The notes below the pieces were generated by a model that worked only from the letters and a program-made list of their open reading frames with translations, did not search any database and was not told the DNA's origin. Position numbers and translations under genes: made by a program. This document shows positions 7,409 through 47,632 of a stretch of DNA of 64,000 nucleotides, one piece after another; the stretch's first letter is position 1, and every line of letters begins with the position of its first letter. Source of the stretch: Norana najaformis (taxonomy: Eukaryota; Annelida; Clitellata; Crassiclitellata; Hormogastridae). The stretch spans positions 14,137,222-14,201,221 of the forward strand of contig OZ029927.1 of the NCBI GenBank assembly GCA_964023275.1. Reading direction: 5' to 3'.

Positions 7409-7581
7409 ATAAGCATACCGAAATTGGAAGCGTATTGTATAGCTCCGCAGTTGCCCAGAGTGGCTGGCTGCTGGCTCGCTTCTTGCAATGTTGACACCGT
7501 CTGTCTGGATTACTGTGACGGCTTTACTGCAGCTTGGAGCCCCGTTTGGCTCCTGCACCCAGTCTTCACAAAATGCCAGAG
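7409..7581 (+). CDS. TGFBR3: Betaglycan exon 2: leader end, start codon, signal peptide
   Basis: The acceptor tttgcttttag ends at 7408. ATG at 7488-7490 opens residues 1-31: MLTPSVWITVTALLQLGAPF is a typical signal peptide, followed by GSCTQSSQNAR, with cleavage probably around GSC. The donor AGAG|GTATGT leaves one base (G), which joins AT of the next exon to make Asp. I chose this start because it alone gives a secretory leader, the right phase, and a stop-free join to the first orphan-domain exon. Confidence 0.78.
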
Positions 7582-10500
7582 GTATGTGAGATGTTCTGAT
7601 TGAAACAGATGACATCACACTCATGCGCACACACGCATACACACACACGCACGCGGGCACAGTGATTTTGTAAGATATCTAACTGATGTTATATTACCCA
7701 TAAGTTTCTGATTACCGTACATACATACATGCATATGTACATACATATGCTAGCATATGCATGTGATGGCACACAGGCACACAAACACACACAACATTCT
7801 CTGAGCGGTGTAAGTTCAGCCACACTTCTAAGGACCATTGTTGAAAGAGGGGTGTGGTAAATGAGCAATTACCTTAACTTACCATATTATATCATTCTTT
7901 CATTTAGAGCATTTATATAGCACCCTCAAAGATATCTTTTCAGATGTGCTCCCAACCTTTTCCCCGGCCAAAGAGAATGGTTTTCAAGTGTTTGCAGAAG
8001 ATGTTTGTGACATCTTTGGTTAAGAGAACATGCAGATCTAAAGGGAGGCTTTTCCAGGTGGATGGCCCAACCTCTGACAAGACACAATGTTGCATTGTCC
8101 AAGTGAGTGCAAAAGGAACAACAAGTTCACCTTTAGCCACGGAGTGAAGATTGCTATGCCTAGCCAAATCTGACACCTGAAATTGTACCCTTTATTTCTT
8201 AGCTGCGTGCACGAGCGTGTGTATGCATGCGTGCGTGAGTGCATGCGTGTATGTGTGCGCGTGCATGTGTGTGCTGTCCTATCACACATTTCTCAATGTG
8301 TGAATTTTTAATGACACTGCTGGAGGATAAGGAGTAACCTTTGAAATGCTGTCAGTTAGTTCTAGCCTATCTGAAGTGGTCGGGTGCTGAAGTGTGAGAG
8401 AATGACGAGACTGTGCCTAGAATTCAGACCGCTTTGTAGGCTTGTGGCCGAAAGGCAAATAGCTTTACTCCAGGACGTCCAATCTGTGATAAGTTGTTGT
8501 ATTCGTGCACATCTTCTAAGCCTGATTAATTATGAAGATATACTGATACTGTTTGATGTCGTTTGATTTTTAGTGCTTTGTCAAGTGATCTTGTGTAAAA
8601 TAATTAATATCAGTCTGATTGCAGGATTGATAATGAAGCCAGCTAGCTTGAACTTCCGCCTTGATGTTTCAAATGTATGCCTTAGTTTTGATTACTGCCG
8701 TTCATTATACTACAGGGTTTCTGCCATGGTCCCCAGTATCTGTGATGATCCGGTGTTTCTTTTATGGCCTGAAGTATCTGTGATGACCCTGAGTTTCTTC
8801 CATGGTCACAAGTATTCACCATTGTCCTGAATTTTGGCCATGCTTCTGAGTACCTGCAATGGTTGCCATGGTCCCAAGTATCTACTATGGTCCGGAATTT
8901 TCTGCCTTGGTCTAAAGTACCTGCCATGGTCCTAAATTTCTGCCATGGTCCAAAATATCTGCCATGATCTAGAATTTCTGCCATGGTCTGAATTTCTACC
9001 ATGGTCCGGAATTTCTGCTATGGTCCTAAATTTCTGCTGTGGTCCCACGTATGTGCCTTGGTCCTGAATTTGTGGCATGGTTCTGAGTTTGTGCCATTAT
9101 CCAAAGCATCTGCCGTTTCCAGCTAGGAATGTTAATTGCTTTTGTGTCCCTGTGATTCAGAAATAGATAAATTATTTTTGGATGTAGACTTCAGTGTTTT
9201 GAATGGCAGTCAACATTAGCATATACACATGCATACATATAGACATATGTATACTAAATGGCTTAAAGGCGCAAGCTTTGACAATACGTGCTCTAATTTT
9301 CAGTTCAAGTCTCTGAACCTAAGATATTATTTAATGCTATTTATACCACGTATATTCCTGTGCAGACAATATGTGGCATAATTTTCAGTTCAAGTTTCTG
9401 AACCTAAGCTGTTAATTAACACTATTTATACTATTTTTATTCCTGTGCAGATTTGGAGCACGACTCTGACCTGTGCAAGATTCGTTCATCGTTTCAGTCG
9501 CCTTACGTCAAGGCGTATCGCACGGAACCTGCGTCTGCACTCACCTGCAACTACAGCGGTGTTCTGTCACCCTCCTCCTCTTCATCGTCATCTTCTTCAT
9601 CGAGAAAGGAGGTCCATGTGGTGTATCTGCAAATCCCAAGCAATAACCAGTCAGAGGAAAGACGTCACCGTGTGCCGCAGGTTCTCTTGAACATCGAAAC
9701 GAGCAATGAAAATGGCAAGTGTCCACTGGAAATTAATGTAAAAAGTAAAAGTAAAGTATCCCATGTCTCACAATTGAACGTAGGGGAAGCACTCGTCTCC
9801 TTTTCTTGGCCCTTGAGCCGGCGATGCACGAATCCTAATGTCCTGGACATGGGGCCGGTGCATCACAGGACTTGCCGTGTACTTTCCGTCTTATGCTGGT
9901 ACCAAATTATACTGCTTGGTGACAGAGGCACGGTGTGCACACACAAGTTGCCCACAGTCATTGCTTAGGAAAATAATGTACAACTTTATAAAAAGTTAAT
10001 TTCAGGTGCATTCCATTTCTGTCCCAAGAACGTGTCAGGCATGTGCAGAAATATACTGAGGAAGATGAGGCGAATGTATTTAAGCTATTCGAAGCATGAT
10101 CGGGGTATGCTTGGGTGCATTATCAGAGAGACATGGAATGCACCCTTGATTGAGCAACAGCTTGAAGATGCATGAAATGTTAATGGATATGGAAATGCGT
10201 GTAGATTAGAGGACAGTGTGCATCCTCTTCCTATTTTTGCTGTGTAGGAGTCACAAGTATTTTTGTCATTGTGGATAGATTGTGCTTGGTGATTTATTAT
10301 TATTTTGAATATTTGTAATGTGGAGTCAAGCGCAGAAATCAAAATCTGAGGCACAGTAAATTTATCACATCCTTCTGGCTGGAATTAATCCCTCCTAGGG
10401 GAGGGGTCAGCCACATGAATCCTTCTTTTCCATTTGTTTCTATCTCCAGTATCTTCTTTCTTCAGTCTGAGGAGCTTTAGGTCTTGGTGAATCATGTCTC

Positions 10501-13500: not shown

Positions 13501-16500
13501 TGGACTTCCTATTCTCCTTATGCAGAGTCTGGACTTCCTGTCCTCCTTATGCAGAATCTGGACTTCCTATCCTCCTTGTGCAGAATCTGGACTCCCTATC
13601 CTCCTTATGCAGAATTTGGACTTCCTTTTCTCCTTATGCAGAGTCTGGACTTCCTGTCCTCCTTATGCAGAATCTGGACTTCCTGTCCTCCTTGTGCAGA
13701 ATCTGGACTTCCTATCCTCCTTTTACAGAATCTGGACTTCCTGTCCTCCTTATACAGAGTCTGGGCTTCCTATCCTCCTTATGCAGAGTATGGACTTCCT
13801 ATCCTCCTTGTGCAGAATCTGGACTCCCTATCCTCCTTATGCAGAATTTGGACTTCCTATTCTCCTTATGCAGAGTCTGGACTTCCTATCCTCCTTATGC
13901 AGAGTATGGACTTCCTATTCTCCTTATGCAGAGTCTGGACTTCCTGTCCTCCTTATGCAGAGTCTGGACTTCCTGTCCTCCTTATGCACAGTCTGGACTT
14001 CCTGTCCTCCTTATGCACAGTCTGGACTTCCTGTCCTCCTTATGCACAGTCTGGACTTCCTGTCCTCCTTTTCAGAGGCTGGACTTCGCATAGATACATG
14101 CCGGTTAGTTTACTTAAGTATCTTGACCTAATGGAAGGAGATCATGATTAGAGGAAGGACTGGCCACCAATCCTGTTATGTTAAGGTTAAAACAGGGAAG
14201 TTGTTAACACATCATATTCGTGGGCTTGCAGCACTTGTGTGAGGTAAATGTACTTCAAGAGCTACTTAAAAGGTACTTAAAAGACACTATATTGTCTCGA
14301 TATATACATTGATGAGGCGTCCATCAGAAGAACCAACAAAGTCCAAAATCAGCATTTATAAAGAAACCTAAACGTGAAACCACTCTTGTTTGTTCCTTCT
14401 GTGTATAAAGAAATCAGTAATGGGGTTTTATAGGACAAACTGTATTCTTCCACGGAACATCAAACTACTATAATATAGTCTAGCCAGTGCTCTACTTATT
14501 GATGCAGTTAGCAAAATTTTTGCTAAAAATATACTTTATTCTTCTGATGGAGGCCTCACATACATACATACATACCGGTACATACATATATGCACACATA
14601 CATACATACATACATATGTATATACATCCCTCTGTGGTTTGTCTAAGGTATTGACTTTTTATTTTTTCTTTGTTTGGTTGTTGACTTTTAATGGCATATT
14701 TATTTGCATGTATATGATTTTGTAAATATTTAAGTATCAACACAGTCATGTAGTGCTTTCTGGGATCAAACAAAGGCACTAAAAATATCTGTCTGTGAGA
14801 CCAGAGAAGGCACAACTTAAGTTAGACGTTAAATATTTCTTGAGCAGTTTCTGACAGAACAGTTCCGATGGAGGATTGTTGTTGAACTGCTAGTAATTTG
14901 TTTTATTTAACTTAAGTGGAACGTACTCTTAATAGCTCAGGTACATGCTGTGGAAATGAGCTCTTGCACTGTAACTTCCCTAACATAGCAGGTGTGATAA
15001 TATAGGCAGGAGGAGGGAGGGGGAGAGGAGGAGGAGAGCAGTCCCTTGTGTTAACCCTGAGAGGCATGAACTGTTAGCAGCATTGTTTTTCTTGACCTTT
15101 GCATATGAGGATGGGTGACTAGTCCTCTCACTGTCCACCTGATCTTCCCACTGAGTGTGTGTATGGTTGATGTACTCATTTTGCAGCCGAGCACTGGGGG
15201 CACTAGTGGAACCTATATGATTAAATGTCTTTCAGTCTAAGCATGGATTTGAACCCATGACGTCTGGATCTGGGATTCAATATCTTGAGTCAGGGTCCTA
15301 ATTTCAGTTTTAGGATCAGCATTTCATATTTTTAATATACTTGAAGCGGTTTTTCAATCCTTGCAAATTACTCATCTGGAGTGCAACCAGATTGGACAAT
15401 TTTTTCTGGCATATTAGTTTGACTGAGCAAAGACTATTAATTTATGCCTTGTGAATGTTTATAGAGACACTATGGAGATTTACAGCTTTCAGTATGTTTA
15501 TCAGGACTTTTCACCTAAGCCATATGGTCTTATTTTGAGAATGACTGATGGTGATTTTGGTTTTTTTTACAGCAATCAGGAACTTGGACTTGATTTTTGT
15601 GCTGGCTTCAAATCAAACTGTCAACTGGAAAATTGTCTCCGACTGCATCGACAAAGCCCGACATGTCTATTTCTGGGTGAGTCTGATCTTCTATGAGGTC
15701 ATTCGTTATTAACCTTCTTTGAGTTCTTTTTTTTGAATAGCTTGACCTGTCCAGTCTAACTGTTGCTCGGATTCTCTTGCTTTTTGATTTTAAATAACTT
15801 GCTGGCCAATCAGTTGGCTGTCAGTCATTGGTAACTGGCTTGCCAAATTACTGAAGGATTTACGATGAAACTGTCACATTTTTACAGTGGCATTTGTGAG
15901 CTTCTTTCGTTAAAAGCTTTGTGTCATAGCTTTATCTTATGATGGAATGCTGCTGACTAACATGATGTTAGGATGATTGAATTTCTAGATGCATTACTGA
16001 CTTAATAAATGACTAAATAACCAGCAGAATTTAAGTGAGTGAGAGTGAGCGAGCGAGCGAGTGAGTGAGGAAGGGAAGCAAGCCGGCCATATTAAACAAA
16101 TAAAATACTGAAAACTGGCATTTACTGGTAATATATTATTATTTCTTATTAAAGAAATAAACTTTGCATCTGTAATGCTTTACTTTTGAGCAATTGTGTT
16201 TGTTCGACACACAACTTCATATTTCATTGGGGTTGTTGTGTTTACATTTGGTGCCCAGGATGAAACATCATTGAGTTCTGTATGCTTAGCATTTGAGGGG
16301 GCGGCCTAGAAGGGCGCTTGAGCAAGTCATCAGGGCTCTGTGGGATATTGCGATGTTTGATATTGCCCAGCCATATTTCATAGGTCGGCGCCGTTGGCGT
16401 TGTTGTGTATAGTAATATGGCCACTGGACGCATGGCTAGTAGTGATTGATGGCCTGGCTTTCGGGCCATTGCGTCTCTTTTAATTTGTTTCTGTTCCGCT

Positions 16501-34500: not shown

Positions 34501-35114
34501 ATAAAGAATTTTCAGTCGGATCTGTTATATGTCTGTCAACTCTGGATTATAACTGCTAAGTTAAACAGTCTTAATTTTTCTGCATAAATACCAAACACTG
34601 CTGGGCAAATATTGCAGCCTCGCAGTCTCTGCAAGCTACCTTTTGTCCCAGTGTGTACATTTCCTTTTCAAGTAAAGTTCGTAAATCCACTTGTGATTGC
34701 ATCGCCGTGTCCGGCGATTGTGTTCTGCAGGAATTCCGCTTAGCGGGAGTTTCAATTCATCAGCGCTGTGACCCGAGGGCTTTAGAGGTTATGGGAAGCA
34801 GCCTCATGGGAGGTCTTGAACTCTTGGGAACTTGAAAACCGGTTTAGGCATGGCATGATTTTGACCATGTAAAGAATGTCTCGGGGAGTTGGCTGAAACA
34901 TGCAGAAGTGGAATAGCTTCTGGTGGCTACTTAAACAGACTCCTTCGATGGGTGAAGTAGCCAGATATGACAAAGATGATTTTGAGGTGTTCGATTATTT
35001 GTATAGTAGCCAGTAGCTAGTACAGCTTAAAGACAAGCATTATATTGGACATCACTATTTTCAGACTACTGCGCTCTATTAATCATCGTCATCTTATTAT
35101 TATTATTGTTATTA

Positions 35115-35145
<31 letters not shown>

Positions 35146-38100: not shown

Positions 38101-41100
38101 TCTGGAAACTGTGGATGCTCTGCTGAAACACAGTTCCGAAATGTCACGTATTTATGGCTTGTTGTTGGTAACTAAGCTAGTGCAAGTATTACAGCCGGAC
38201 TGTCATTGTTTGGCCTTTGGCTAGTCTATGCCTGGTTGATTAGGACTAGACGTTGGCATGGCAAACAAAGGAGCCCATCCCAGGATATGAAAAAGTGAGC
38301 AGGTGTGATTCTCAGAAGGCTACTTGTGATGTTTGAAACAGGCACTTAACATTTGGTTATTAAGTAGACTCACTTAATATCAAATTGGCTTTTCATACTG
38401 AACAAGTAGGCCTACTACTCCTTATCACAGATGACTAAATCTGTTCCTTGAATAAGATCATTCTTCTAAAGTAGGACTAGAAGACACACCCTCACACAAG
38501 TGCACGCAAGGTTTATCCTAACGTCTTGTATCTAATACACTGGGACCATGTTGTGGCCCTTTGCTAAACACATGTGGGCCAGGTGATTGTGAAAGGAAAA
38601 TTCTTAGTTTTATGATGAAATGCCTTTCCTATCTGAACTTATCACAACCTCTCTCTGGTTCATCATCATCATTGTAGTCGTCGTCGTCAGTTCCTGATCC
38701 CAGCAATTTGGCTATGATGGCTGCCAGTTCTTTTATCTCTCTACCCTTCCTGTCTGATCTGACCACGACCTCTTTCTGGTTGGTAAACTTTGATGACCTG
38801 CCGACCTCTACAGACCACATACCTGCAGAGGTTAATGGCTGAACAGGTGTATTCGTGTTTTCGTTTATGTTCTGCCACCCACACCTGCCCTCACACGCTC
38901 TGTAGTGCCCGAGAATGATCATACACATTCCTTGTGCAGCACACTTCATCAAGTTGAAATCTTGGATCTGCTGAGGTGCTCAAAGTAAGGAGGCTCCAGA
39001 TGTTTGGAGTTATTGCATGCTGCTGTGGCAGGCAAGGCTATGCCGGGGCTCCAAGCCATGTTACCCTGCCCTCCATGGAGCCGGAAGTGACCAGTTGGTG
39101 GGCCTAGACACATCTGGACCTATGGGGCAGAGTCCAGTACATACTAGCTGAACTTTTGGATACACAGGTTCTAGAAGAGTCACACGATGATCAGTGTTTA
39201 CCTATGTAGGGTGCCAGACCATAAAATGCCAATAAGGACAGCTTAAATTAGCATTTACGAGCTTCAGAACATTGTCACGATTAGTAATCTTCACCCTAGA
39301 AAAGCTTGTCCAGTCTCGGGTGCAAATATTTGATTACATGTACAGATCCCTTGCTCTTACACATCTACACGACAATATTGTGCACTGTCTTGCAAAAAAC
39401 CCTTCTCCCTGGAATAGTATTTCCATGTATGGCTTTACTTGTGTCCTCTAGCAAATTCACTGTAATGAGTGCACCGACCGTACACTGTCAGTGGTGAGGG
39501 AGAGGGCCAGCCACCCCCCTCATATGCCGAGGCTAAAAAATGATTTCATTAACGCTTTGTACCAATTTTTGCCAATCAGGGTAGCTTAAAGGACTGCTCT
39601 TCCGATACCTGAGCAAGTAAAATCTACAATGTTAAATACATCCTTGGTTATATAGCTCCTTTGAGACTTTGAGATCCACCACTGATACCTTCTTCTGCAG
39701 TAGTCCGTAGTTTGAAACCGTGTCTGTTTTGATTTCAGTGGGCGACAGATGGCAGCATGGACGAGGCAAGGATGACGACAGCTTGAGTTGGTCCGACGGA
39801 CTGATCCGGAAATTTCTGGATCAAATTAGAACAGTTGCCGAACAGTCGCGGTCGGTTTCCTGCCTCCCAGGAGCCATGGAAGTCAGCCTGCTTAAAAATC
39901 CACTCTCGGTAGGCAAAGCATTTCTCTTCTGTTTGGCCCTTTTACACTTTGTAGAACGGGACGGGATGCGGCTGATGAGTGTTTAGATTCGTGCAGAAAT
40001 CTGTATGCATGGAACACGTTGGCTGATCGGTTGGGTGCCTGCCTTATAACACAGTGTGTAGGGTTAAGCTTCCCCTGAGAGGGTCAGTGTGTGTGTGTGT
40101 ATGTGTGTAGCTATGTCTGTTTGTATGTATGGATAAATGTGCATATGTACGTTTGCCTGTGTGTATGCTTGTATTGTAATTGTAACTGTAATCAAAAACT
40201 TATAAAGCACCACTTCAAGATAAAACTCATCAGAGGCGCTCCTGGCCCGATGTCCCAGAACTAGTGGAGAATAATATGGTATATATGAAATGAATACATT
40301 TAACATAGCACCTCTTAAGTACCTCACATGTGATGATTGTTCTTTTTCGCCGAGGTTGGTTTGGCAGCGCTTCTGAGTAGTTTTCTTGAAGGGGCGCTAT
40401 ATAAGTGTTCTGTATAAATAAATAAATAAATTCTAAAACGCATAATTGCTTAGCACCATGAATGAAAGTCAGCTGACCTTTTAGATGAACTAAAACAAAG
40501 CAGAGCATTGGTTGTTTTCTATCTGAAAAGATTTTTTAAAATATCTGCAGTTGAAAAGTTTAATAAGGAAGACAGATGTTATGTGTAAATTTTCTGTAGC
40601 AGCCCTGCAAAAAAGAAGTATTGAGTAAAGAGATGGACTGATGGATCAGATCAAAAGAGGCTTAAAATATTAGTTTGAATGATTTAAAAAGCAAAAGTCG
40701 TGCTATGCTAAAAGTTGGAAAATGATTATGCCATGCTGACAGATCGAAAATAATTATGCTCTGCTGAAATGGAAAATAATTATGAAATGTGATGTGAACA
40801 CGAACACTAAAAATTGACAGATTATATTGCTGAAGACTGAGAAAATAGCTGTCTATTTCTGTAACGATCTTTTCTCATGTTACCTATATTACTAGAAGTT
40901 TTTCTAACCTTCCACAGCCATTTTAGAGGTCATCTTTTTATAATATGAGCAGCTTTTATATCAGCAGTTCCTAGCATGTTCAGTGATTCTATTTAAGTCG
41001 GGAAATTGATGTCATGAAGCGTTTTATGACATGGGTAATGAAAGAGCTAATTACCACCTTGAAAGCGTAGGCATTCCTTCGTTATCAGACTGCGTAATGT

Positions 41101-44100
41101 TGTGTTCCATTTAGCCATTTCCATTTATATGCAGGTTTGGCTTCTACGTTCATCCGAATTTGTGTTTAGCTCACATTACGTCTTGCACATTGATGTGAAC
41201 TTTTGCGCAATTTTTGTGTCGTGTCAAGCTACCTGTTCTATTTCTGGCCATCTAATTATGCTAGGCTTTCTTTTTTATAATAATGCGCTTGTGTATATCA
41301 CAAATTCTGTTATTACACGGTCTGGGAGATGGATCGTAAAATTAGTTGAGCTATATAAAATAAGCCCATCGTAGCATGATCTAGTTATAAAGTGATTCTT
41401 GAAGTGGCTCCCAAAGACAGCTTTATAACAAGTTTTTGATGTATTCAGGCAAATGATGATGGATTGCGAAAGCATCTGATGACACTGGCGTGCTTTGGTT
41501 CCTGTTTTCTCCTAGGGGTTTTTTCTGTCGACTGACCAGCTATCCTTGGATGACCCGGACTGTGTGGCGCAGCAGAACGACACGCACTACTTCTGGAGAA
41601 CAGGCCTGGAAGCTTGTGGAGGCGTGCAGCGCCATCATGCGGATAGAATCGTGGTTGAAAATGCGGTCAGTACAATTAACGCGAACCAAATGCGGTGTTG
41701 GTCGATAAGCAGCGCTTTGCAATTATGCTGCAGCGGGTGCCATGGGATGTTTCACGTGGGAATGACTGGTCTGGTGGTGGCATCAGGTCGAACTGATGTA
41801 TGGAATTAAATGGAGGGATTTGTCGATGTAGGTTTATGTTGTCGATTATTGTGTAGGAGATGGCTGTCGGAGTGTGTTACAGCTGTCCAGAGTTAAGCTA
41901 TGGTGTTTCTTTTCTGTCAGGGCCAGTTTTGACATTTTGGGTGGCTGGCTAACGGGCTTGACCATATTGGCTGGCTGGCTGGTTAACTTGATGATTTGAC
42001 GTGCTTGGTTGCATTTTAACTGGCTGATGATTTGATGTGCTTGGTTGCATTTTAACTGGCTGGCTGGCTGTCATTGCTTGCTTGACTGATTGATTGACAG
42101 ATCCTAATCAGGCCAATAAAGCCACCTGTTGGCCAGTCTTTGGATGATTTCTCTGGATCCGGAATGAAGCAAATGGAAGAAGGAGATGGCGTTGATGACA
42201 CGTTTTCAGATGATGAAGATGTATCACGTTCAGCAATGACCGTCATCCGACTGAACTTTGCCTGTACCTTCCCACTGGATTCAGACTTCCCTACGGTAAA
42301 TGCCATCTCTATAATTGGCCTAACAGTTCATTTGTATAATTTCAATTTTCCAGGTTCACAAATACTTGTTTGGATAGCGATTAAGATCTGGGTTTGTTAA
42401 GGTAAGCAAGCTGTTTTTTGTCTCCTCTGTTTTCACCCACTGCTCAGGAATGACCAGTGATTTTGCTGTCTTTTATGCTGTTATATTTTAGGTGTTCAGA
42501 GTTTTATGGCCAGATGTTTATGAGATATAGGCAAACCTTGTACAGTCACATCTTACAACTTACAAGAGCAATTACAGGTCTTGACCCTTGGACTGCTGAC
42601 TCCAGCCTCAAACCAATATTAGCTTAACAAAAAATCATTGATGCCTGCCCGAAAATTATCTACTTAGTCTCAAACCACTGGAGCCAGCCCAAAACCTCTC
42701 TGGTGCCAGGTGTCGTACCACTTGCGTCAGCCCTCATACCACTTCATACCACTGGCAGCAACCTCAGAACTGCAGGGCTACTATTATTTGGGCATTTTAT
42801 GTATACGTCAGTGCTTACCTATAAGTGCTTTTGTAGTATTTTCATTACTGCTCTACAGGGAGCTTAGCATTGCATTCTAAGAACTGGTTTCAGTCAGAGG
42901 CTGATTTACTGAGGCCATTTTCTTAATCTGTTTCCAGGATGTGGACTATTATCTGCGACTTTACAAAGATGCCCTTTTCCAGCACGAGATCGTTTCATTT
43001 CCAGTTATCGTTGGGGAGAACCAGTCACTGTATATCATGGCGGGAATCCATACGGGTCAGTAGTACTTTTAATTGAAAGGGAGGAAGAAAAGCTTTCTTA
43101 AGCTTACTCTGGGTATGAAGTGTTAGTGGCTTAATTTTTTTTAACCTTGGCATATGAGGAGGACAGGTGGTTAGTCATCTGCCTCGCCATCTGTTCATCC
43201 CATTAACAGTGTGTAGCTGGGTTTGCTGAATTTTGCTTAAAAGATGACTGAATCTGGGGTAGCGCTAATTAAGGACTCGTTTATTAATTAAGAACTCCAC
43301 AACTTAGTTGACTGTTGACATTAGTCTGAGGAAGTGTGGTTCTCGGGTTTGAAGATCTTATACTTTAAGTCATGGATGACGAGATAACATACAGAGATGT
43401 TGAATTTTAGATCTGATAGATAACTGTGTTTCAGTGGCTTTGAGAGAGCCATGAAAGGCTCTATGTAAATGTTCAGATACATACATACTTACATACAGCA
43501 TATCTTTATGGGTTGCATTCGGTTGCTTGGTATGGGTTTTGTGTCTTTACAATGAATTGCCAATTCTATATGATGCACCAAGAGTTGAACCCCAGAAACA
43601 GTTACAGAAGGCTGACAGAACATAGTCAGAACTTAGTTTTTATACAGGGATATAAGCTTGTTGTTTTGCAAAGCTTAGGAATGTCTGCTAGCTAGTTTGT
43701 TGTTTGCAGATGAAGTGAGTAGGTGGGTAGTTAAAACAAAGACATTTGTCAACAGAAAGTGATGTAAGTGAATGATGCTGAGACTAAAGAGAAGCATCTG
43801 AAAGATGAGGATGCTGAGTTTAGTTTTGTGTTGCACTTCCACTTCTTTTTGGATTACATTACATTACATAACATGTTCGTGTATTTTTTTATTTCCTGTG
43901 AGTATTTGCAAAACACGAAAACTAGCTGGGTATGGGTATGAGTGTCATTATGGGGTGACTGTTTACTGGTTAGCATGCTGCACTGTCACCCCAGGTGTTG
44001 GGTGTTCAAGTCCCATCACAATGAAAAGGTATTTGCTATTCCTCTAGTGCCTCTATTGAACTCGGGGTATAAATTTAGTACACCTGATCCTGGCAAGATC

Positions 44101-47100
44101 ATTATTGGCAGGATCAGATGGCTAGGGAGAATTGTGTTTATAGGAATTCGACCTGGTTCTCCAGTAGATTATGATTTTGATTAGAATGTCACTTGAAGCG
44201 ACCATCGATTGATACCTTGGGCATTATGATGATGGCGCTGTAGAAGTCATTAGATTACGTTAGATATGTGTACCTTCTTCTTCTATGAGTATCTTTGGGA
44301 AATCTTTTTAGGAGTGGATTTTGTGCTTTCCAATTTTAACTAGATTATTATAATGCAATTTAATGTTTTACAGTACTTGTTACATTTCATGTTGTTATTA
44401 TTGTTTTGTAAACTTTAAAGTCTGTTAGTTAAGTTTCTCTTAATTAAATCCTTTGAATTACGTTAACCCTTTGACAGCAGCAGTGAAAACTTTTGTAACT
44501 TATATTATTATTATTACATTATTCTTGTATTTGTCAGTGGTTGGTGAATAAGTAAGTGGCTTCAGATCAGATCAGTTCAAAACATTATGACTGTTGGATC
44601 ATTGTCAGTATTGATTGAAATGTTATTTAATTAACATGTTTGGGTTCTAGAACAAGGACTGCAAGCGAACATTGAGAGCTGTAGTGTGTTTCCTACGGCT
44701 GTTCCGGGCCTTCTGCAGCACCCCCTCATCATCAACAGGTGCATTGTGGATGAAATGGTCGTCTGGAAAGATGATGGACCTTTTGAAGATGCAGTCCTAG
44801 CAGAGAGGTTTGAATTTCCCTTCCGAAAGTGGTGGGGAGATCATACGAGTGTTGACCTTCGCTGTGACCTGACTGTTTGCAACAGGCTAGCCAACCACAA
44901 GGCTGGCATACCACAGGTTAAACTCAGTGGTGTTAATGTTAGTTTTAAAATTTAGTTTTAAATAATAAGAATAAAATTTCTACTGTTTAACATAATTTTG
45001 TTATTCCTGCTCAAGGGATATTTTCTGCCTCAAGCAAAACTAATTTTTTCATTCCTGAGGGATGATAAATACCTCTGGTAAAAAAATAATCATCATCATC
45101 TTCATTATCACCATCATCATTACGATGGTCAGTCAGTCTGTTGAAGGTACAGTCATGTAGCCAATTTAGGAATTAAATTCACCTTTGGCCGTTTATTTCA
45201 ATGCCTCGTCATGCAGACTTCCACTGTTTTGCGGAATTACCAGTAGGTGTTCGTGTACCTTTGATTGATGCCTTATGCATTATTATAATGACAGTCCTAT
45301 AGAAGTTATCAGATGAGACAAGATTGCTTGCCTTGATTTTCTCACAGTGCCAGCCAGGTCCAGCCAGGCGTTGTTTGGCTTCTGGCGGCCAGCATTCGTC
45401 TGAGCCAAAACAAAACACAGTGGCCAAAATGCTGGAGATTGGGCCATTGGTGCTGCACTCTGGTGTCAACAATTCTGTTTCCTCAGGTACGCTGTGATCA
45501 TACCCCCCCCCCGACGGGTCGTATAGACAGAGTTATTGTGGACTTTTGTGTAGTGCCAAGGTAATTGTAATCACAGATTTATGTAGCGCCTTTTCAAGAG
45601 AAACTGATCAGAGGTGCTTCTGACCTGACAACACAGGCGACGTTTGAACAGAATGTTTTTCAAGCTCTCACAGAAAAGATTAATCTAAAAGAGATCGGCA
45701 TTTAGTGTTAGTGGCATCATTTTCCTGGCCTGAGCATATGTAGCTGGTGGTTGCTTCTCTGTCATGACAGAAGCTGATGACTCGACATTTGTGTAGAGTA
45801 TTTTAACATAGTCAAGAATTATTTATGTAGCCCCGGTTCTCTCTTACCTCTTGCTAATAACTAACTGCGGGGAATTTATTATTTTTGAGTAGCAAATTCA
45901 GTGGTGCTGGTGTCTGACGCACTTTTGTAGCGGAGTTACATAAAGCAGAAATTGATGCCATACTGGGAGATGAATCTTGGTCCACTGTCCACCATGTTGA
46001 CCAATAGGCTTCAAAGTGATGCAGGTCACGCTTATGGCAGCTTTTAAAAATGATTACTGGTTTTAAACAATTTAAGGATGATAGCAATATCGTTGATTAT
46101 AATAACACTAGATTTTATTATTATAACCTGAAGTTTTGCATTAGTGGTGTTTCATGTAAACGGATTACTGCTAATTTGAAACAAGACGTGGATCTGGATC
46201 TTTTATGAGCTAGTATCTTCTTTTGTGGCTCCTGTTGCATGGTTCTTGTGAACTTGTTTTCTGATGGTGGTGGTGGTGGTCGTGGTCGTGGTGGAGTGGT
46301 CGTGGTGGTGGTCGTCATGGTGGTGGTCGTGGTGGTGGTGGTCGTGGTGGTGGTGTTGGTCATGGTGGTGGTCGTGGTGGTGGTGGTTGTGGTGGTGGTC
46401 ATGGTGGTGGTGGTCGTGGTGGTGGTCGTGGTCATGGTGGTCGTGGTCGTGGTGGTGGTCGTGGTCGTGGTGGTGGTCGTCGTGGTTGTGGTGGACTTTT
46501 CTTTGGTGTTGTCTGTCTTTATATGTACATTTACATTACTTTGTGTTCTGTGTGTAGGCCGAGTGTCTCAGGTTGTAAGTGTATCAGAACCAAGGCTGCA
46601 TCCTGTGGCTCCAGAGGATGAGGAATTGTGCAACCAGGTGGTTAGAATTGAGGGTCTGGATTCCCCAACGGTCGTCGGAATTGCATTTGCAGCATTCTTA
46701 ATCGGAGCCTTGTTGTCAGGAGCGCTCTGGTACATTCACAGTCGCACAGGTATAACTGGAATGGAGGTTTTGGTATTGTGTTTCTGTATGGAATTATTCT
46801 TGTCTGTTTCATTACGTTACCTCCTTTAGACTTCTATTCTGCATGTGTGGCATGGTTGTATAGTGGTAACGCTTTTGATCAATGATCATGCGGTTATGGG
46901 TTCGACTCCATGTAACGACCCTGGGCAAGTTGTTTGTGTACTCCGTGCCTCTGTCACCAAGCAGTATAATTTGGTACCGACACAAGCTGGAAAGTAAATA
47001 GCAATCCTGCGATGCACTGGTCCCGTGTCCAGGACCGTGGGATTTGTCCATTCTTGGCTCAAGGGCCTAAAGAAAGGGGATTGAGCACCTCCCCTATGTC

Positions 47101-47632
47101 TCACTGGTGGGATATGGGATACTTTACTTTTTACTTTTCTGTATGGGTGTGAACGTGAGTATTTAACCTGGCTGTGTCCATGTTACTGTAACTGATGAAC
47201 TTTTTGTTCTTAATGAACTTTTACGTGGCAACTAGTATAACAGGGTAGTGTGAAAAAGTGGGGTTTAAAAGCCACCTATTTCATTTTTTCAGTCTATGCA
47301 GAATGTGAGGCTTCATAGCTGAGAGGATGTTAATTATCGTCTTCAGAATGGGTGTGAAATAGTCCAACATATGTCTCAAACATTTAAAAAATGGAAACTC
47401 AAGTTTCAGATGTAATTTAAAATTGTTTTGGTTAAATATTTCTACACAGTTAGAACTTTTTTCATCAGTTTTTTGTGTGGCTTGAAGCGATTTGCAGTAG
47501 AATTTTTATTCGCTTTACACAGGGCCTGCGAAGAAGCATAAGCTGAGACGGAGGTCGGCAGAGACAAGTGGAGAATCCACTCCGAGCTCCACAGCCCCAA
47601 TCACAATTTGCCAAACTGTCAACCAGGTCTAG
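7488..47632 (+). CDS. TGFBR3: Betaglycan / TGF-beta receptor type III homologue, complete spliced CDS
   Basis: CDS = join(7488..7581, 9451..9718, 15580..15676, 20339..20513, 22089..22188, 24968..25145, 31643..31820, 39739..39908, 41516..41665, 42101..42295, 42938..43055, 44651..44916, 45348..45486, 46558..46749, 47523..47632): 2430 nt, 809 residues, close to human betaglycan (851). Betaglycan is a membrane proteoglycan co-receptor that binds TGF-beta2, inhibins and BMPs and presents ligand to the type II receptor. Order: signal peptide (1-22 or so), first orphan half-domain (about 33-240), second (about 245-350), linker, ZP-N/ZP-C module (about 395-700) with a Ser-Gly glycosaminoglycan site at 488-491, transmembrane helix about 747-769, and a 40-residue basic tail. 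Diagnostic matches are EVHVVYL and DVHIFEL (family EVHIIEL), NQTVNW (family SVNW), and the membrane block VGIAFAAFLIGALLSGALWY, nearly identical to vertebrates. All exon phases agree. Endoglin is the alternative relative, but the tail and membrane segment are betaglycan's. The exon 3/4 junction is uncertain by 11 codons. Confidence 0.9.
7930..8176 (-). mobile_element. LINE 3'-end remnant (weak)
   Basis: A minus-strand frame reads VGPSTWKSLPLDLHVLLTK then LKTILFGRG. This resembles the end of the ORF2 protein of CR1/Jockey-like LINEs, which carry a motif of the type GPxxWNSLPxxLR...LKTxLF. The frame ends in a stop near 7940. It is only a decayed fragment. Confidence 0.45.
8715..9115. repeat. 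Degenerate ~20-bp satellite (ctgccatggtcc unit)
   Basis: About 20 imperfect copies of a unit close to ttctgccatggtcctgaat. Unit length drifts between 18 and 20 bases. Lies in intron 2 and has no sensible coding frame. Confidence 0.85.
9281..9450 (+). repeat. 85-bp tandem duplication including a 3' splice site
   Basis: Two copies (9281-9365, 9366-9450) share attttcagttcaag, ctgaacctaag and attcctgtgcag. The second copy ends exactly at the exon 3 acceptor, and the first carries the same acceptor 85 bases upstream. Using the first would add 85 bases, shift the frame and soon meet a stop (TAA at about 9411-9413). Confidence 0.85.
9451..9718 (+). CDS. TGFBR3: Betaglycan exon 3: orphan domain 1, N-terminal part
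   Basis: The acceptor attcctgtgcag ends at 9450. Encodes residues 32-120 plus two bases: SDLCKIRSSF with the first domain cysteine, LTCNYSG with an N-glycosylation sequon, a run of about ten serines, then KEVHVVYLQI and QVLLNIE, the edge strands of the orphan-domain fold. The donor is uncertain. AA|GTGTCC at 9718 is weak but joins in frame to an acceptor at 15579. GT at 9745 or 9751 lies in the 3' tail of an adjacent SINE and joins in frame to a stronger acceptor at 15572, adding 11 to 13 residues including one cysteine. Confidence 0.78.
9738..9967 (-). repeat. tRNA-derived SINE, family A, inverted, 5'-truncated, with target-site duplication
   Basis: Read on the minus strand: tgggcaacttgtgtg, cagtataatttggtac, ccatgtccaggaca, cctaca (diverged end), tgggatactttacttttac. 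It is flanked by ggaaattaatgta (9728-9740) and ggaaaataatgta (9968-9980), 12 of 13 identical, a good target-site duplication. The tRNA head is missing. The element begins about 20 bases after the native donor of betaglycan exon 3, and its tail supplies alternative GT donors. Confidence 0.82.
10385..10651 (-). mobile_element. LINE reverse-transcriptase C-terminal fragment
   Basis: The minus-strand frame contains GRGSRGRQKKRWGDMIHQDL, then LKLLRLKKEDTGDRNKWKRR and HVADP. This matches the C-terminal end common in invertebrate non-LTR ORF2 proteins (GRPKKRWxDxIxxDL...AxDRxxWRRxVxxADP). Only the end is present and the frame is isolated, so this is a dead 5'-truncated copy. Confidence 0.8.
11040..11950 (+). 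pseudogene. Broken CR1/Jockey-like LINE ORF2 fragment
   Basis: Successive frames, interrupted by indels and stops, give pieces typical of a non-LTR reverse transcriptase: a VPEGCVLG...LLF-like block near 11090-11130, an MQYAENTQLY block (the catalytic YADDTQLY box with the second aspartate replaced) near 11160-11195, HEAILFATHQ, KHSLTDDVAK, a LHWLSAEWRV block near 11630, and HIWNRLPQKARL near 11845 at the end. Inactive. Confidence 0.8.
12495..12625. repeat. GT microsatellite (interrupted)
   Basis: About 130 bases dominated by GTGTGT blocks. Two minus-strand open frames rich in THTHT come from it. Confidence 0.85.
13085..14085. repeat. 29-bp satellite, about 34 copies, open in all three plus frames
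   Basis: The unit is close to cagaatctggacttcctgtc + ctccttatg (29 bases), with variants gag/gaa, cta/ctg and a few 26-base copies. Because 29 is not a multiple of three, each frame cycles through all phases and reads the same 29-residue cycle (LLMQNLDFLSSLCRIWTS and similar). No frame has a stop over hundreds of bases, giving apparent proteins of 203, 228 and 370 residues. It sits in a betaglycan intron with no splice support. Confidence 0.92.
15580..15676 (+). CDS. TGFBR3: Betaglycan exon 4: orphan domain 1, NLDLIFVL / NQTVNW strands
   Basis: Residues 121-153: NLDLIFVLASNQTVNWKIVS then DCIDKARHVYFW. This is the most recognisable orphan-domain segment (human counterpart NLILILKCKKSVNW), with a glycosylation sequon at NQT. 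The donor TGG|GTGAGT is strong and in phase 0. Two acceptors lie 7 bases apart: tttttttacag ending at 15572 and aatcag ending at 15579. Which is used depends on the exon 3 donor; both pairings keep this frame. Confidence 0.85.
16800..17080 (-). mobile_element. LINE reverse-transcriptase C-terminal fragment
   Basis: The minus-strand frame reads KWIGHIVRGDSLLRNIIAGR then MEGKKRIGRPRQVLLDW. This is the classical end of invertebrate non-LTR ORF2 proteins (WxGHVxRxDS...GxxxGxRxRGRPRxxxLD). The catalytic core is absent. A different sequence type from the copy at 10385. Confidence 0.82.
17465..17712. repeat. G-rich GGGT/GGAT tract
   Basis: About 250 bases of ggtgggtggatgggtgagt-like units on the plus strand. 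Minus-strand frames read as HPSTHPPTH repeats. The G runs are short (3-4) but dense. Confidence 0.88.
18870..19310 (+). repeat. tRNA-headed dispersed repeat
   Basis: A B-box-like gaggttggaacctctc near 18921-18936 is followed by aggctttgagcaagtcctta and a block taaatggcgtggcgcccatt / caaacgggcagcggtgatga. That last block recurs inverted at 27100-27165. A second 'gggacctttagcaagtcctt' block begins near 19237. Confidence 0.6.
20150..20300. repeat. GACA/GAGA-rich tract
   Basis: Low-complexity purine-rich stretch of mixed (GACA)n and (GAGA)n about 40 bases upstream of betaglycan exon 5. Open frames over it are artefacts. Confidence 0.85.
20339..20513 (+). CDS. TGFBR3: Betaglycan exon 5: orphan domain 1, C-terminal part
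   Basis: Too fragmented to appear as a long open frame; found by phase and content. The acceptor ctgttaaacag ends at 20338 and the donor TTAG|GTATGT leaves one base. Residues 154-211 read VSNNSRLIPVSHPRVKIRKF, then LQSLGQWATEKFNHITTVGE and HELTRKITTSVGL. They align with the vertebrate segment whose pattern is NEHLLNWARKEYGAVTSF. One N-glycosylation sequon (NNS). Confidence 0.85.
20685..20762 (+). repeat. Dispersed repeat, 'cgagatttctacag' family
   Basis: gtaagccggagatttctaca then gcgcctaacagaaagc, accagcttattcacaggcgc-like end and gtcaaaa. Same family as 4870 (inverted), 51685 and 61610. Confidence 0.6.
21400..21685 (+). mobile_element. LINE 3' end (5'-truncated), copy 1
   Basis: Decayed ORF2 end followed by a 3' tail. 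The block cagttcgttctgtcaattct then aaagatgcatctctttcaac reads as a C-terminal SFKSxLKMHLFQLA-like end, then the common tail gactgatgccttgtgtgtta and gctatagaagtc with attagattag. Same family as 21718, 28345 (minus), 30705 and others. Confidence 0.72.
21718..21985 (+). mobile_element. LINE 3' end (5'-truncated), copy 2
   Basis: A frame gives FWNFLPVSVCFASSLMLFKS followed by GLKS, the characteristic WNxLPxxxR...SxxxFKxxLKS end of LINE ORF2. It is followed by the shared tail gtgctttgtgcattaagata and agaagcttatagatgag. Confidence 0.72.
22089..22188 (+). CDS. TGFBR3: Betaglycan exon 6: linker between the orphan half-domains
   Basis: The acceptor ctgtttgtttcag ends at 22088 and the donor ACAA|GTGAGT is strong. 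In the phase set by exon 5 it reads TGKGKACSELHRGEAAEETV then GCIDPANQGLNN, residues 213-244. It aligns with the vertebrate stretch ending KAAEGCVMSSQ just before the second EVHIIEL strand; both cysteines correspond. A different frame is open too and looks less like the family. Confidence 0.82.
22249..22535 (+). repeat. tRNA-derived SINE, family A
   Basis: B-box gggttcgactcc near 22298-22309, then gggcaagttgtttgcacaca, cgagcagtataatttggtac, gtccaggaccttgggattca, gagcacctcccctatatctc and gggatactttactttttt. It begins about 60 bases downstream of the exon 6 donor. Confidence 0.82.
22580..23190 (-). pseudogene. LINE ORF2 C-terminal remnant
   Basis: The minus strand, in frames broken by indels, gives LRSNNIHDNLIETYDILHRD, matching the DMIEVYKILHG-type box of non-LTR ORF2 ends. 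Further on are a NDLPQSVHTAESFK-like piece and a HSEDST-like piece where the family has WNxLPxxVVxAxSVNxFKxxLD. Dead, and of another lineage from the copies with the LKMHLFQLA end. Confidence 0.7.
23900..24160 (+). repeat. tRNA-derived SINE, family A
   Basis: gagggttcgactccggtaac (B-box), gaccctgggcaagttgtttg, agcagtataatttggtaccg, gtccaggaccttgggattcg, gagtgcttcccctaagtctc. Same order as at 22249 and 46846. Confidence 0.82.
24968..25145 (+). CDS. TGFBR3: Betaglycan exon 7: orphan domain 2, first half
   Basis: The acceptor tttgtttcttag ends at 24967. After one base completing Lys, residues 246-304 read DVHIFELEMHDMSSSTIFLD, then SVRRHLLLVLKAHRPTRWTV and RTSRLRGTLDII. This repeats the EVHxxxL...LxLxLK...xxW plan of exons 3-4 and aligns with human EVHIIEL...NLILILKC...NWVIKS...GSLKII. 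The W is kept but the vertebrate cysteine in LKC is alanine here. The donor ATT|GTAAGT is strong and in phase 0. Confidence 0.88.
25720..25985. repeat. CATA/CACA microsatellite
   Basis: About 265 bases of catacatacacacatac-type repeats. It yields five overlapping open frames on both strands rich in Tyr/Cys/Val or Thr/His, none credible. Confidence 0.9.
27100..27165 (-). repeat. Dispersed repeat block, inverted copy of 18990-19060
   Basis: Read on the minus strand this gives aaacggcgtggcacccctt, caaacgggcagcggtggaga and aggatctcacc, matching the block at about 19000-19050 with a few changes. Surrounding sequence (26940-27100) may belong to the same element. Confidence 0.65.
27205..27415. repeat. 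25-bp satellite with a 75-bp higher-order pattern
   Basis: Eight copies of a 25-base unit starting tgcaaactggcatcct. Two variants alternate: A ends caatcagta and B ends taagcacta. The order is A A B, A' A B, A'' and a diverged last unit, so the array grew as 75-bp blocks of three. Confidence 0.9.
28085..28250 (-). mobile_element. LINE 3' end fragment, minus strand
   Basis: The minus strand carries ctgtcagctctttaacac, caggtctgaactt and caacttgctaacccaccaca, the same region of the LINE end as in copies 21400 and 30705, more decayed. Confidence 0.6.
28345..28640 (-). mobile_element. LINE 3' end fragment, minus strand
   Basis: The minus-strand frame includes SGLLGSWSKALQFSAQFSSF and CQFFDVIQV, and the DNA matches copy 21400 across cagttcgttctgtcaattct, ttgatgtcattcaggtctaa and aaagatgcatctctttcaac. 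5'-truncated and inactive. Confidence 0.7.
29680..29835 (+). repeat. tRNA-headed SINE with a tRNA-Thr-like head
   Basis: ggggcacggtacccgattgg then gtagaacacttggcttgtaa, with an anticodon-like TGT, and a B-box-like caggtacgaacctcc near 29732. It is followed by ggggaccttgagcaaagcct, a body shared with 18960, 32110 and 49285. Confidence 0.65.
30705..30962 (+). mobile_element. LINE 3' end (5'-truncated), copy 3
   Basis: A frame reads VRSVNSLMSFGSKPKMHLFQ then LAYPP and TAA, an ORF2 terminus. It is followed by acctggcttctccagtagac, ttgacttgaagcgaccatcg, actgatgccttgtgcattgt, and gcgctatagaaatctt with a final attatattag. It is the best-preserved copy of this LINE end in the window. Confidence 0.78.
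31643..31820 (+). CDS. TGFBR3: Betaglycan exon 8: orphan domain 2, second half
   Basis: The acceptor tttttgttgtcgtcag ends at 31642. Residues 305-363 include VRVVNERLANLSGSDLITWT then AVNYGAPVSYTGAKLASRF and DLTVDG. They align with human GNLVKWALDNGYSPITSYTMAPVANRFHL. One sequon (NLS). The donor GGAG|GTAGGC leaves one base. Phase 0 in follows directly from exon 7, so no exon is missing between. Confidence 0.9.
32035..32185 (+). repeat. tRNA-headed SINE, same body as 29680
   Basis: acatggtagctgatttgacg at the A-box position, gcaggtttgagcctcc at the B-box position near 32077-32092, then tgggaccttgatcaaatcct. A diverged copy. Confidence 0.55.
33120..33210. repeat. GAT/GAG/GAC trinucleotide tract
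   Basis: About 90 bases of ATG-ATG, GAG and GAC triplets. The minus-strand open frame over it reads Ser/Pro runs and is an artefact. Confidence 0.85.
33318..33365 (-). repeat. 5S-rRNA-derived sequence, minus strand
   Basis: The plus strand reads ggtcgcctatccaagtacaa then acctgactcggttttgttta. Its complement gives the 5S order GTTAAAC (A-box region), CGAGTCAGGT, TTGTACTTGGATAGGCGACC (C-box). It is more diverged than the copy at 2868 and in opposite orientation. Only the internal promoter part is kept. Confidence 0.65.
33985..34180. repeat. 39-bp satellite, five copies
   Basis: The unit is tgttttaaaatctcctgtca then attatccaaactcttactg. The third copy lacks three bases (cct). The unit is a multiple of three, so a plus frame stays open and gives a repeated SPVNYPNSYCVLK peptide. 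Confidence 0.9.
35090..35170. repeat. TTA microsatellite
   Basis: About 80 bases of (TTA)n with a few TTTA interruptions. A second shorter TTA/TTATCA run lies at 36190-36245. Confidence 0.88.
35385..35565. repeat. 21-bp satellite, about 8 copies
   Basis: The unit is tgttatattggaaatgtatgc (21 bases, split here as tgttatattgg + aaatgtatgc). Because 21 is a multiple of three and the unit has few stops, several frames on both strands stay open and read YWKCMLL, VILEMYA, QYNSTHF or SNITAHI repeats. No splice signals mark it as coding. Confidence 0.9.
37205..37245. repeat. AT microsatellite
   Basis: Alternating AT run of about 40 bases inside intron 8. Confidence 0.85.
39739..39908 (+). CDS. TGFBR3: Betaglycan exon 9: linker and start of the ZP-N domain
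   Basis: The acceptor ttttgatttcag ends at 39738. Two bases finish a valine codon shared with exon 8. Residues 365-420 read GDRWQHGRGKDDDSLSWSDG, a polar acidic linker, then SRSVSCLPGAMEVSLLKNPL. They match the vertebrate ZP entry SVKCDNEKMIVAVEKDSF, with the first ZP-N cysteine. The donor TCG|GTAGGC is in phase 0. Confidence 0.85.
41516..41665 (+). CDS. TGFBR3: Betaglycan exon 10: ZP-N domain
   Basis: The acceptor ttttctcctag ends at 41515. Residues 421-470 read GFFLSTDQLSLDDPDCVAQQ, NDTHYFWRTGLEACGGVQRH and ADRIVVENA. They align with vertebrate GMDVTLLDPTCKAKMNGTHFVLESPLNGCGT, with both cysteines, the LxDPxC motif and the THFxxxxPLxxCG pattern. Sequon at NDT. The donor GCG|GTCAGT is in phase 0. 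Confidence 0.9.
42101..42295 (+). CDS. TGFBR3: Betaglycan exon 11: inter-ZP segment with glycosaminoglycan site
   Basis: The acceptor ttgattgacag ends at 42100. Residues 471-535 read ILIRPIKPPVGQSLDDFSGS, GMKQMEEGDGVDDTFSDDED and VIRLNFACTFPL. DDFSGSG inside an acidic stretch is a glycosaminoglycan attachment motif. It sits where vertebrate betaglycan has DLESGDNG, its attachment region. VIRLNFAC matches IVVFNCSL, closing ZP-N. The donor ACG|GTAAAT is in phase 0. Confidence 0.9.
42938..43055 (+). CDS. TGFBR3: Betaglycan exon 12: start of ZP-C
   Basis: The acceptor ctgtttccag ends at 42937. Residues 536-574: DVDYYLRLYKDALFQHEIVS, FPVIVGENQSLYIMAGIHT. Matches the vertebrate pattern FNMELYNTDLF...VPENGHVYVEVSV. 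Sequon NQS. The donor ACGG|GTCAGT leaves one base. Confidence 0.87.
43951..44270 (+). mobile_element. tRNA-headed SINE carrying the LINE 3' tail
   Basis: The head has gtttactggttagcatgctg (A-box) and ggtgttgggtgttcaagtcc (B-box, 44003-44022). The 3' part from about 44147, gaattcgacctggttctcca to gctgtagaagtcattagatt, is homologous over about 115 bases to the tails of the LINE copies at 21400 and 30705. This is the layout of a SINE that borrows a LINE's 3' end for its own reverse transcription. Confidence 0.72.
44651..44916 (+). CDS. TGFBR3: Betaglycan exon 13: ZP-C core
   Basis: The acceptor tttgggttctag ends at 44650. Residues 575-663: EQGLQANIESCSVFPTAVPG, HPLIINRCIVDEMVVWKDDG, ERFEFPFRKWWGDHTSVDLR and CDLTVCNRLANHKAGIPQ. 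They align with vertebrate ELGFAIQTCFISPYSNP...YTIIENICP...VHFPIPQ...LQCELTLC. Cysteines for the ZP-C disulfides are present. The donor CAG|GTTAAA is in phase 0. Confidence 0.92.
45348..45486 (+). CDS. TGFBR3: Betaglycan exon 14: end of ZP-C and juxtamembrane region
   Basis: The acceptor attttctcacag ends at 45347. Residues 664-709: CQPGPARRCLASGGQHSSEP, KQNTVAKMLEIGPLVLHSGV and NNSVSS. CxPxxxxxC matches vertebrate KCVPPDEAC, the last ZP cysteine pair. LEIGPLVLHSG may be the external hydrophobic patch region. One sequon (NNS). The donor TCAG|GTACGC leaves one base. Confidence 0.87.
46264..46497. repeat. GTG/GTC triplet tract
   Basis: About 235 bases of GGTGGTGGTCGTGGT-type triplets with occasional CATGG, ending 60 bases before the exon 15 acceptor. 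Plus frames read poly-Val or Trp/Ser and the minus frame poly-Thr. A plus frame happens to run into exon 15 in the correct reading frame, but reading through the exon 14 donor meets TGA first, so it is intronic. Confidence 0.9.
46558..46749 (+). CDS. TGFBR3: Betaglycan exon 15: juxtamembrane and transmembrane segment
   Basis: The acceptor ttctgtgtgtag ends at 46557. Residues 710-773: an acidic stalk PVAPEDEELCNQVVRIEGLD, then SPTVVGIAFAAFLIGALLSG and ALWYIHSRT. The membrane block is almost residue-for-residue the vertebrate one ([25 protein letters not shown]). This is the strongest single proof of identity. The donor ACAG|GTATAA leaves one base. Confidence 0.95.
46846..47138 (+). repeat. tRNA-derived SINE, family A (best-preserved copy)
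   Basis: A-box-like tggttgtatagtggtaacgc near 46853, B-box gggttcgactcc near 46898, then gaccctgggcaagttgtttg, agcagtataatttggtaccg, gtccaggaccgtgggatttg, gagcacctcccctatgtctc and gggatactttactttttact as the 3' end. It begins about 95 bases after the exon 15 donor. Confidence 0.85.
47523..47632 (+). CDS. TGFBR3: Betaglycan exon 16: cytoplasmic tail and stop
   Basis: The acceptor cgctttacacag ends at 47522. Residues 774-809: GPAKKHKLRRRSAETSGEST, PSSTAPITICQTVNQV, then TAG at 47630-47632. The basic start is a typical stop-transfer. The ESTPSSTA part parallels vertebrate QSTPCSSSSTA, where the chain ends with a class I PDZ ligand. Here eleven more residues follow. Confidence 0.92.

Follow-up and report, generated by a model that had tools for sequence, protein, structure and literature searches.

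We report a betaglycan (TGFBR3)-type gene on the + strand between positions 7488 and 47632 of the window, by which we mean the entire 64,000-nt stretch of DNA that was analyzed (C15:14137222-14201221, from an assembly of 608,420,607 bases in 17 contigs). Its 15 exons can be joined in phase to give 2433 nt that encode 810 amino acids followed by a stop codon. Judged from its sequence, the gene is very likely to be a spiralian orthologue of TGFBR3 and to encode a cell-surface co-receptor.

Exon structure of the gene

The internal exons were rebuilt by using tblastn with human TGFBR3, which supplied collinear pieces, followed by spliced alignment over positions 7001-48200 and enumeration of splice sites for the gaps. 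The model is drawn from genomic sequence, and its junctions are predicted ones. The frame of the joined exons runs from the ATG at 7488 to the TAG at 47632 and contains no internal stops. A preliminary description of this DNA had likewise proposed 15 phase-consistent exons within these bounds, and its count of 809 codons presumably reflects the alternative acceptor at 22095 (in place of 22089), which yields 809 codons when the stop is counted. With one parameter set, the spliced score of the TGFBR3 query was 370 on the + strand and 67 on the minus strand, as compared with 93 for the reversed query, 108-130 for four shuffled queries, and 54 for the rest of the window. Spliced alignment with cheap introns returned 46 exons, most of them spurious, and two stricter settings ran into the minisatellite at 13083-14087; neither outcome was used as the model.

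When exons were compared individually with 300 shuffles, eight of the 15 proved significant (0-2 shuffles as good), and two of these eight, exons 2 and 3, have their best match in the second orphan repeat instead of the first. The other seven (exons 1, 5, 8, 10, 11, 13, and 15) are not significant singly and were accepted because their phase, splice sites, cysteines, and order fit. Exon 1 (7488..7581) carries the start codon and signal peptide in an open frame that leaves in phase 1 at a GTATGT donor. Exon 2 (9451..9714; acceptor 6.0; 2/300 shuffles) encodes the first orphan strand, Cys40, and the EVHV strand, and the intron that follows is of the GC-AG type, with a GC donor at 9714 scoring 0.9. 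This donor is supported because the rival GT donor at 9779 sits within a SINE copy (9741-9962). Exon 3 (15573..15676; 1/300 shuffles), which takes the frame from phase 1 to 0 through the OD2 strand region of the orphan domain, has the top combined score among the candidates listed for its gap, and exon 4 (20339..20513; 2/300 shuffles) brings OD2 to its end with a match to human residues 158-188 behind a weak acceptor (0.7). The hinge back to OD1, with Cys220 and Cys235, is assigned to exon 5 (22089..22188), the top single-exon candidate leading from phase 1 to 2. The OD1 strands (DVHIFEL...LRGTLDII) follow in exon 6 (24968..25145; tblastn E 0.001; 0/300 shuffles), and OD1 ends in exon 7 (31643..31820; human 310-356; 0/300 shuffles).

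The linker and the start of ZP-N, including Cys406, are placed in exon 8 (39739..39908) on the basis of phase fit and this cysteine, and ZP-N continues with Cys437 and Cys455 in exon 9 (41516..41665; acceptor 7.8; 0/300 shuffles). Exon 10 (42101..42295; acceptor -0.6; 23/300 shuffles) spans the acidic inter-ZP region with its SGSG motif and the start of ZP-C at Cys526, exon 11 (42938..43055; acceptor 5.8) lies mostly inside a Pfam ZP-C match, and exon 12 (44651..44916; human 630-722; acceptor 0.9, donor -0.7; 0/300 shuffles) provides the ZP-C core with cysteines 586, 606, 647, and 652. Exon 13 (45348..45486; splice sites 4.7/4.9) contributes the final ZP-C cysteines (665 and 673), which are aligned, together with a degenerate FG loop. 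Juxtamembrane Cys735 and the membrane block reside in exon 14 (46558..46749; tblastn E 7.6e-11; 0/300 shuffles), and exon 15 (47523..47632; acceptor 5.1, fitting phase) encodes the cytoplasmic tail through its stop codon, TAG. Splice sites are weak at 42101, 44651, 44916, and 46749.

Two of the gaps may each hold an additional small exon that the model does not adopt. In the gap 20514-24967, the best-scoring candidate for one exon is 22089-22188 (24.3), and the eight two-exon chains listed reach 28.7-36.9 on a loose additive score; all eight use the acceptor at 22089 or 22095, and six retain the whole exon to 22188. Within 31821-39738, the candidates were weak (best 20.5) and none was adopted. 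The least secure exons of the model include exon 5, where the stretch around the leucines L208, L210, and L213 of the orphan domain would lie.

Several repeats occupy the introns of the gene. A SINE-like element is present in four copies that are approximately 80% alike, at 9741-9962 (- strand), 22272-22529, 23916-24163, and 46869-47138 (+ strand), three of which contain a tRNA-like GGTTCGACTCC box. Searches of bacterial and viral contigs with this element gave 0 hits in each set. Rfam and tRNA scans gave no matches. A second dispersed family occurs at 21394-21675, 28111-28524 (- strand), 30731-30961, and 44144-44265, and the minisatellite in intron 2 consists of approximately 35 copies of a 29-bp unit that is largely open in all three + frames. 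Fragments of open reading frames at 10388-10552 and 16823-17077 (both - strand) look like what we take to be the C-terminal ends of RTE-type LINEs. The next gene downstream is a homeobox gene on the - strand, in which RKRRHRTIFTEEQLEQLEKTF... (in L035, approximately 2867-3199) and VWFKNRRAKWRKQ (window 63015-63488) are separated by an intron, and which is presumably of the goosecoid type. Between this gene and the betaglycan gene, a 218-aa open reading frame in which N, Q, G, H, and Y are abundant (55309-55962, - strand) exhibits coding-like codon usage and has no Pfam match in that frame. Six-frame scanning of the genome with PF00100, in which 12 candidates were scored, gave one match outside the betaglycan gene, at C1:20995577-20995795 (- strand; L001).

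Anatomy and identity of the predicted protein

The predicted protein is composed, in order, of a signal peptide, a split orphan domain, ZP-N, an inter-ZP SG site, ZP-C, a membrane block, and a short tail, in agreement with the earlier proposal of an architecture complete from signal peptide to tail. Fourteen of the 17 cysteine columns of human betaglycan are kept, a count to which the signal peptide and the tail contribute one column each; nine of the ten ZP cysteines are in register with those of the human protein, and the tenth, Cys526, is a few residues off. The SGSG motif (aa 489-492; 42152..42163, + strand) occurs in an acidic context between ZP-N and ZP-C and is a candidate site for glycosaminoglycan attachment. 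The transmembrane core (aa 749-767; 46671..46727, + strand) corresponds to the highest 19-residue hydropathy, and the surrounding membrane block, described previously as vertebrate-like, is indeed identical to human betaglycan at 27 of 35 positions (77%) by tblastn. Over 34 columns of this block, 26 are common to human betaglycan and 22 to endoglin. The cytoplasmic tail comprises approximately 36 residues, is not a kinase, and terminates in TVNQV, with the vertebrate STA end absent. In vertebrate betaglycan, the C-terminal STA is a PDZ motif that binds GIPC, and it is not a defining feature of the family. Cys735 precedes the membrane; endoglin has a comparable cysteine, human betaglycan lacks one, and by comparison with endoglin it may have a role in dimer formation or pairing.

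Searches of the PDB argue that the protein is a betaglycan. The joined sequence matched four TGFBR3 sequences with E values of 1e-29 to 4e-12, and the fifth match was noise (E 2). The orphan half alone matched four TGFBR3 sequences and nothing else, and its best match (E 8.4e-16) aligns query residues 39-330, which span the two subdomains, with the zebrafish TGFBR3 orphan domain. The ZP half alone matched three TGFBR3 sequences (1.6e-15, 8.9e-5, and 1.8e-4) plus one noise match (E 0.79), and ZP-C was also recognized by PF00100 (aa 539-659; E 1.1e-6; 29.2 bits, above the 24.6-bit cut-off). No other ZP chain in the PDB was matched at E up to 10 by the whole protein or by the ZP half; such proteins are presumably represented in that library. 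The second orphan half matches each of the two repeats in human betaglycan, although its match to the first is weak (i-Evalue 0.084), and BLASTP of the two orphan halves against each other found no similarity. A generic ZP protein is thus disfavored, as TGFBR3 was the only protein in the PDB that either half matched above noise.

These separate matches also bear on the reading in which a spiralian ZP-domain protein merely resembles betaglycan, orphan exons from one gene having been run together with ZP exons from another. Such a fusion would accommodate the seven exons that are not significant singly, the short linker after the orphan domain (approximately 40 residues, as compared with approximately 95 in human), and exon joins that are predicted from genomic DNA. 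However, each half independently points to TGFBR3 in the PDB, all phases fit within a joined frame free of internal stops, and the membrane block is 77% identical to that of human betaglycan. We therefore regard the joining of two genes as very improbable.

Endoglin is disfavored as well. No endoglin was matched by the worm protein at E up to 10 in the PDB, where the orphan chains 5hzw and 5i04 are present. The orphan part of the worm protein scored at best 61.5 bits against vertebrate betaglycan, as compared with 38.7 bits for human endoglin against betaglycan. Because the human endoglin orphan domain, when used as a query, retrieves betaglycan at only 5.1e-9, the worm protein is closer to vertebrate betaglycan than endoglin is. 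Identity over aligned positions is 207/743 (27.9%) between the worm protein and human betaglycan and 147/612 (24.0%) between the worm protein and endoglin; for reference, betaglycan and endoglin share 181/629 (28.8%), and the human and zebrafish orphan domains share 161/304 (53.0%). Although the worm protein shares with vertebrate endoglin an orphan fold family and much of the membrane block, its lower identity to endoglin and the absence of a PDB match set the two apart. These observations uphold the initial assignment to betaglycan and speak against endoglin or a generic ZP protein, and the gene is probably the pro-orthologue of both vertebrate betaglycan and endoglin.

Ligand-binding surfaces and candidate ligands

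By analogy with vertebrate betaglycan, the worm protein would be a single-pass proteoglycan co-receptor, with surface expression, a glycosaminoglycan, and a ligand all predicted from this likeness. In vertebrates, the orphan domain and ZP-C have been shown to hold a dimeric ligand of the TGF-beta family at the membrane, and the bound ligand is passed to, or withheld from, signalling receptors; the worm protein would operate in the same manner. We compared the surfaces that grip TGF-beta by registering the numbering of the FG loop to that of PMC11865472 through the motif LDA(S/T)xIW. The FG-helix contacts A158, I161, W162, and M165 correspond to G678, S681, S682, and K685 in the worm. The binding loop of the orphan domain is shorter by three residues than in zebrafish and by five than in human; the worm has a gap opposite L208 and L210, a leucine at the place of L213, and possibly the loop phenylalanine (F264). 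The ZP-C residue N82, which is vital for TGF-beta2 binding (PMC11865472), is kept as N604. Inhibin A binding needed neither N82 nor I161 (PMC11865472), and thus an activin/inhibin-like use of ZP-C is possible. In sequence, the scaffold is therefore conserved and the TGF-beta grip is mostly absent, with the FG helix missing, the orphan loop short, and N82 retained. These contact residues define ligand choice in vertebrates and not membership in the family.

The genome contains 23 exon matches to PF00019, representing at most 21 genes. In the last ligand tree, three sequences group with BMP2, one with BMP7, one with BMP3, two with BMP9/10 (100/99), and five with GDF8 (100/98). A single genome thus carries five GDF8/11-type, three BMP2/4-type, and two BMP9/10-type ligands (among L006-L008, L011-L014, L016, L022, and L023). 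The sequence adjoining BMP3 (L009) we take to be ADMP-like. Three further sequences (L017, L019, and L021) form a clade of their own (99/97), and L015 and L018 make up a separate pair. In an earlier tree, a constraint that grouped L017, L019, and L021 with TGFB1-3 withstood the test (p-AU 0.349). Partial domains were used for L010, L022, and L023, and the last tree was built without L020, four long-branched human rows, and L028, a fragment that is in no tree.

Another ligand, of the activin/TGF-beta branch, is located at C10:20882765-20883578 (L026, L027, and L057). To the eye, its C-terminal REDLSNM recalls the EQLSNM of TGF-beta, and the end of its prodomain, SHRPFL, resembles that of INHBA (inhibin-beta). 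Residues E99, L101, S102, and N103 have been named as characteristic of TGF-beta isoforms (PMC11865472). The placement of the C10 ligand (L026 plus L027) differs by tree, falling with INHB/GDF8 (89/75), with TGFB1-3 (84/82), or, in the last tree, to which fly activin had been added, beside activins (34/4). Holding it with TGFB1-3 in this last tree gave a likelihood 0.36 higher than that of the free search (p-AU 0.554), and no placement was rejected. Because the placement shifts between trees, a TGF-beta-type ligand is possible in this genome. Human TGFB2 used as a query gave 25 matches in the genome, of which the best by E value is a BMP2/4-type gene (42%) and the highest in identity is the first exon of the C10 ligand (56% over 37 residues). 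No ligand falls firmly with TGF-beta 1-3, and the reading of a genome devoid of any TGF-beta-type ligand is softened by this identity and by the tree placements.

It could be that the host's own TGF-beta-type ligand binds worm betaglycan much as in vertebrates, the contacts having drifted on both sides, which would be compatible with betaglycan identity. Retention of N82, the REDLSNM terminus of the C10 ligand, its two tree results with TGFB1-3, and its identity to TGFB2 are what such a partnership would predict. The replacement of hydrophobic FG-helix contacts by G, S, S, and K, the shortened binding loop, the INHBA-like prodomain end, and the position of the C10 ligand beside activins in the free tree, even with almost no support there, point the other way. 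Moreover, a genome profile search of uncertain sensitivity for the TGFBR2 ectodomain family gave four matches, none of which exceeded the cut-off; the best (22.1 of 25 bits) belongs to a Ly6-like repeat protein, and two more were noise-like. Taken together, these data make a vertebrate-like pairing with TGF-beta unlikely.

Because the grip on TGF-beta 1-3 is mostly absent, the likely ligands are other family members encoded in this genome, namely those of the activin branch or of the GDF8/11 or BMP9/10 type. The genes for such ligands are present, and it is quite possible that worm betaglycan pairs with one of these types. An alternative reading would assign to the worm betaglycan an endoglin-like function, as a disulfide-linked dimer that partners BMP9/10. 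The two BMP9/10-type ligands in the genome are in keeping with this role, as is Cys735, which is absent from human betaglycan and comparable to the cysteine of endoglin that presumably serves in dimer formation. In contrast, the protein is nearer in sequence to betaglycan, the endoglin orphan chains went unmatched, and in the ZP-C cysteine columns 660-730 the worm has five of five and endoglin none, endoglin being poorly aligned there. We find an endoglin-like function doubtful, and it would in any case be compatible with betaglycan identity.

Host lineage and the origin of betaglycan

The genome bears hallmarks of a spiralian. A Lox5 query gave 107 matches, of which the best, at C4:29684019, is 94% identical over all 67 residues, including the lophotrochozoan KLTGP tail. 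Among 16 loci read of these 107, four carry the motif (Q/A)IKELN and encode what are presumably Lox2/Lox4-type homeodomains; C3 holds three of them and C1 the fourth. Hox-type homeodomains form separate groups at C4:29.68-29.90, C3:3.37-3.76, C3:7.74-8.04, C3:31.6-33.5, and C1:62.83-62.93 Mb. Lox5, Lox2, and Lox4 are lophotrochozoan genes (PMC5831810). PMC4758240 describes Hox genes as multiplied in earthworm and leech and as single copies in Crassostrea, Lottia, and Capitella, and it raises the question of whether the earthworm duplicates occupy several clusters. The Lox5 gene with its KLTGP tail and the multiplied Hox genes bear out the suggestion that the host is not a vertebrate; that it is a spiralian is well supported, and it is likely to be a clitellate annelid. 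The contig that includes the window also carries decayed nuclear copies of mitochondrial cox1 (C15:412069-412726, in which cox1 is followed by cox2, and C15:570464-571281), with cox2 letters that presumably resemble those of earthworms. A search of the assembly for the mitochondrial genome returned only such nuclear copies.

Set beside vertebrate betaglycan, the worm protein has the same order of parts, the inter-ZP SG site, and the register of nearly all ZP cysteines, and it differs in its modest identity, lost FG-helix contacts, shorter loop and linker, TVNQV end, and extra juxtamembrane cysteine. Another of the closest known proteins, TGFBR3L, is not known to have an orphan domain. It is an inhibin B co-receptor related to TGFBR3 (PMC11865472). 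Close as well is the betaglycan of echinoderms (sea urchin TBR3), likewise non-vertebrate and from deuterostomes. Two sources report one TGFBR3 gene per echinoderm (PMC10381214) and a single-copy sea urchin betaglycan that, when tagged and expressed, binds Panda in co-immunoprecipitation (PMC11239237). Betaglycan is known chiefly from vertebrates and sea urchins, and the view of it as essentially a vertebrate protein, which the preliminary description implied, is therefore not supported in that form. Limited literature searches, with most subscription journals and database annotations outside their scope, found no betaglycan in a protostome, and one may already have been annotated or published elsewhere.

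The occurrence of full-length betaglycan in a protostome, in echinoderms, and in vertebrates implies that the gene originated in bilaterians before the protostome-deuterostome split, unless it moved sideways. The preliminary description had taken the gene to date the TGF-beta co-receptor. This holds for a bilaterian scaffold that precedes the split, a result that is less new given the published echinoderm betaglycan, and it does not extend to TGF-beta binding, as the residues that grip TGF-beta (PMC11865472) are mostly not conserved. TGF-beta sensu stricto is reported to have appeared in deuterostomes (PMC11239237), and on this account the co-receptor would predate the ligand for which it is named. 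We tentatively suggest that betaglycan in the bilaterian ancestor served ligands of the activin/GDF or BMP9/10 type, that the FG helix and orphan loop that make up the TGF-beta grip were added later, as TGF-beta sensu stricto arose in deuterostomes, and that the worm retains the older choice. With a full-length protostome betaglycan that includes both orphan subdomains, the first job of this co-receptor can now be approached by using the worm protein together with defined worm ligands.
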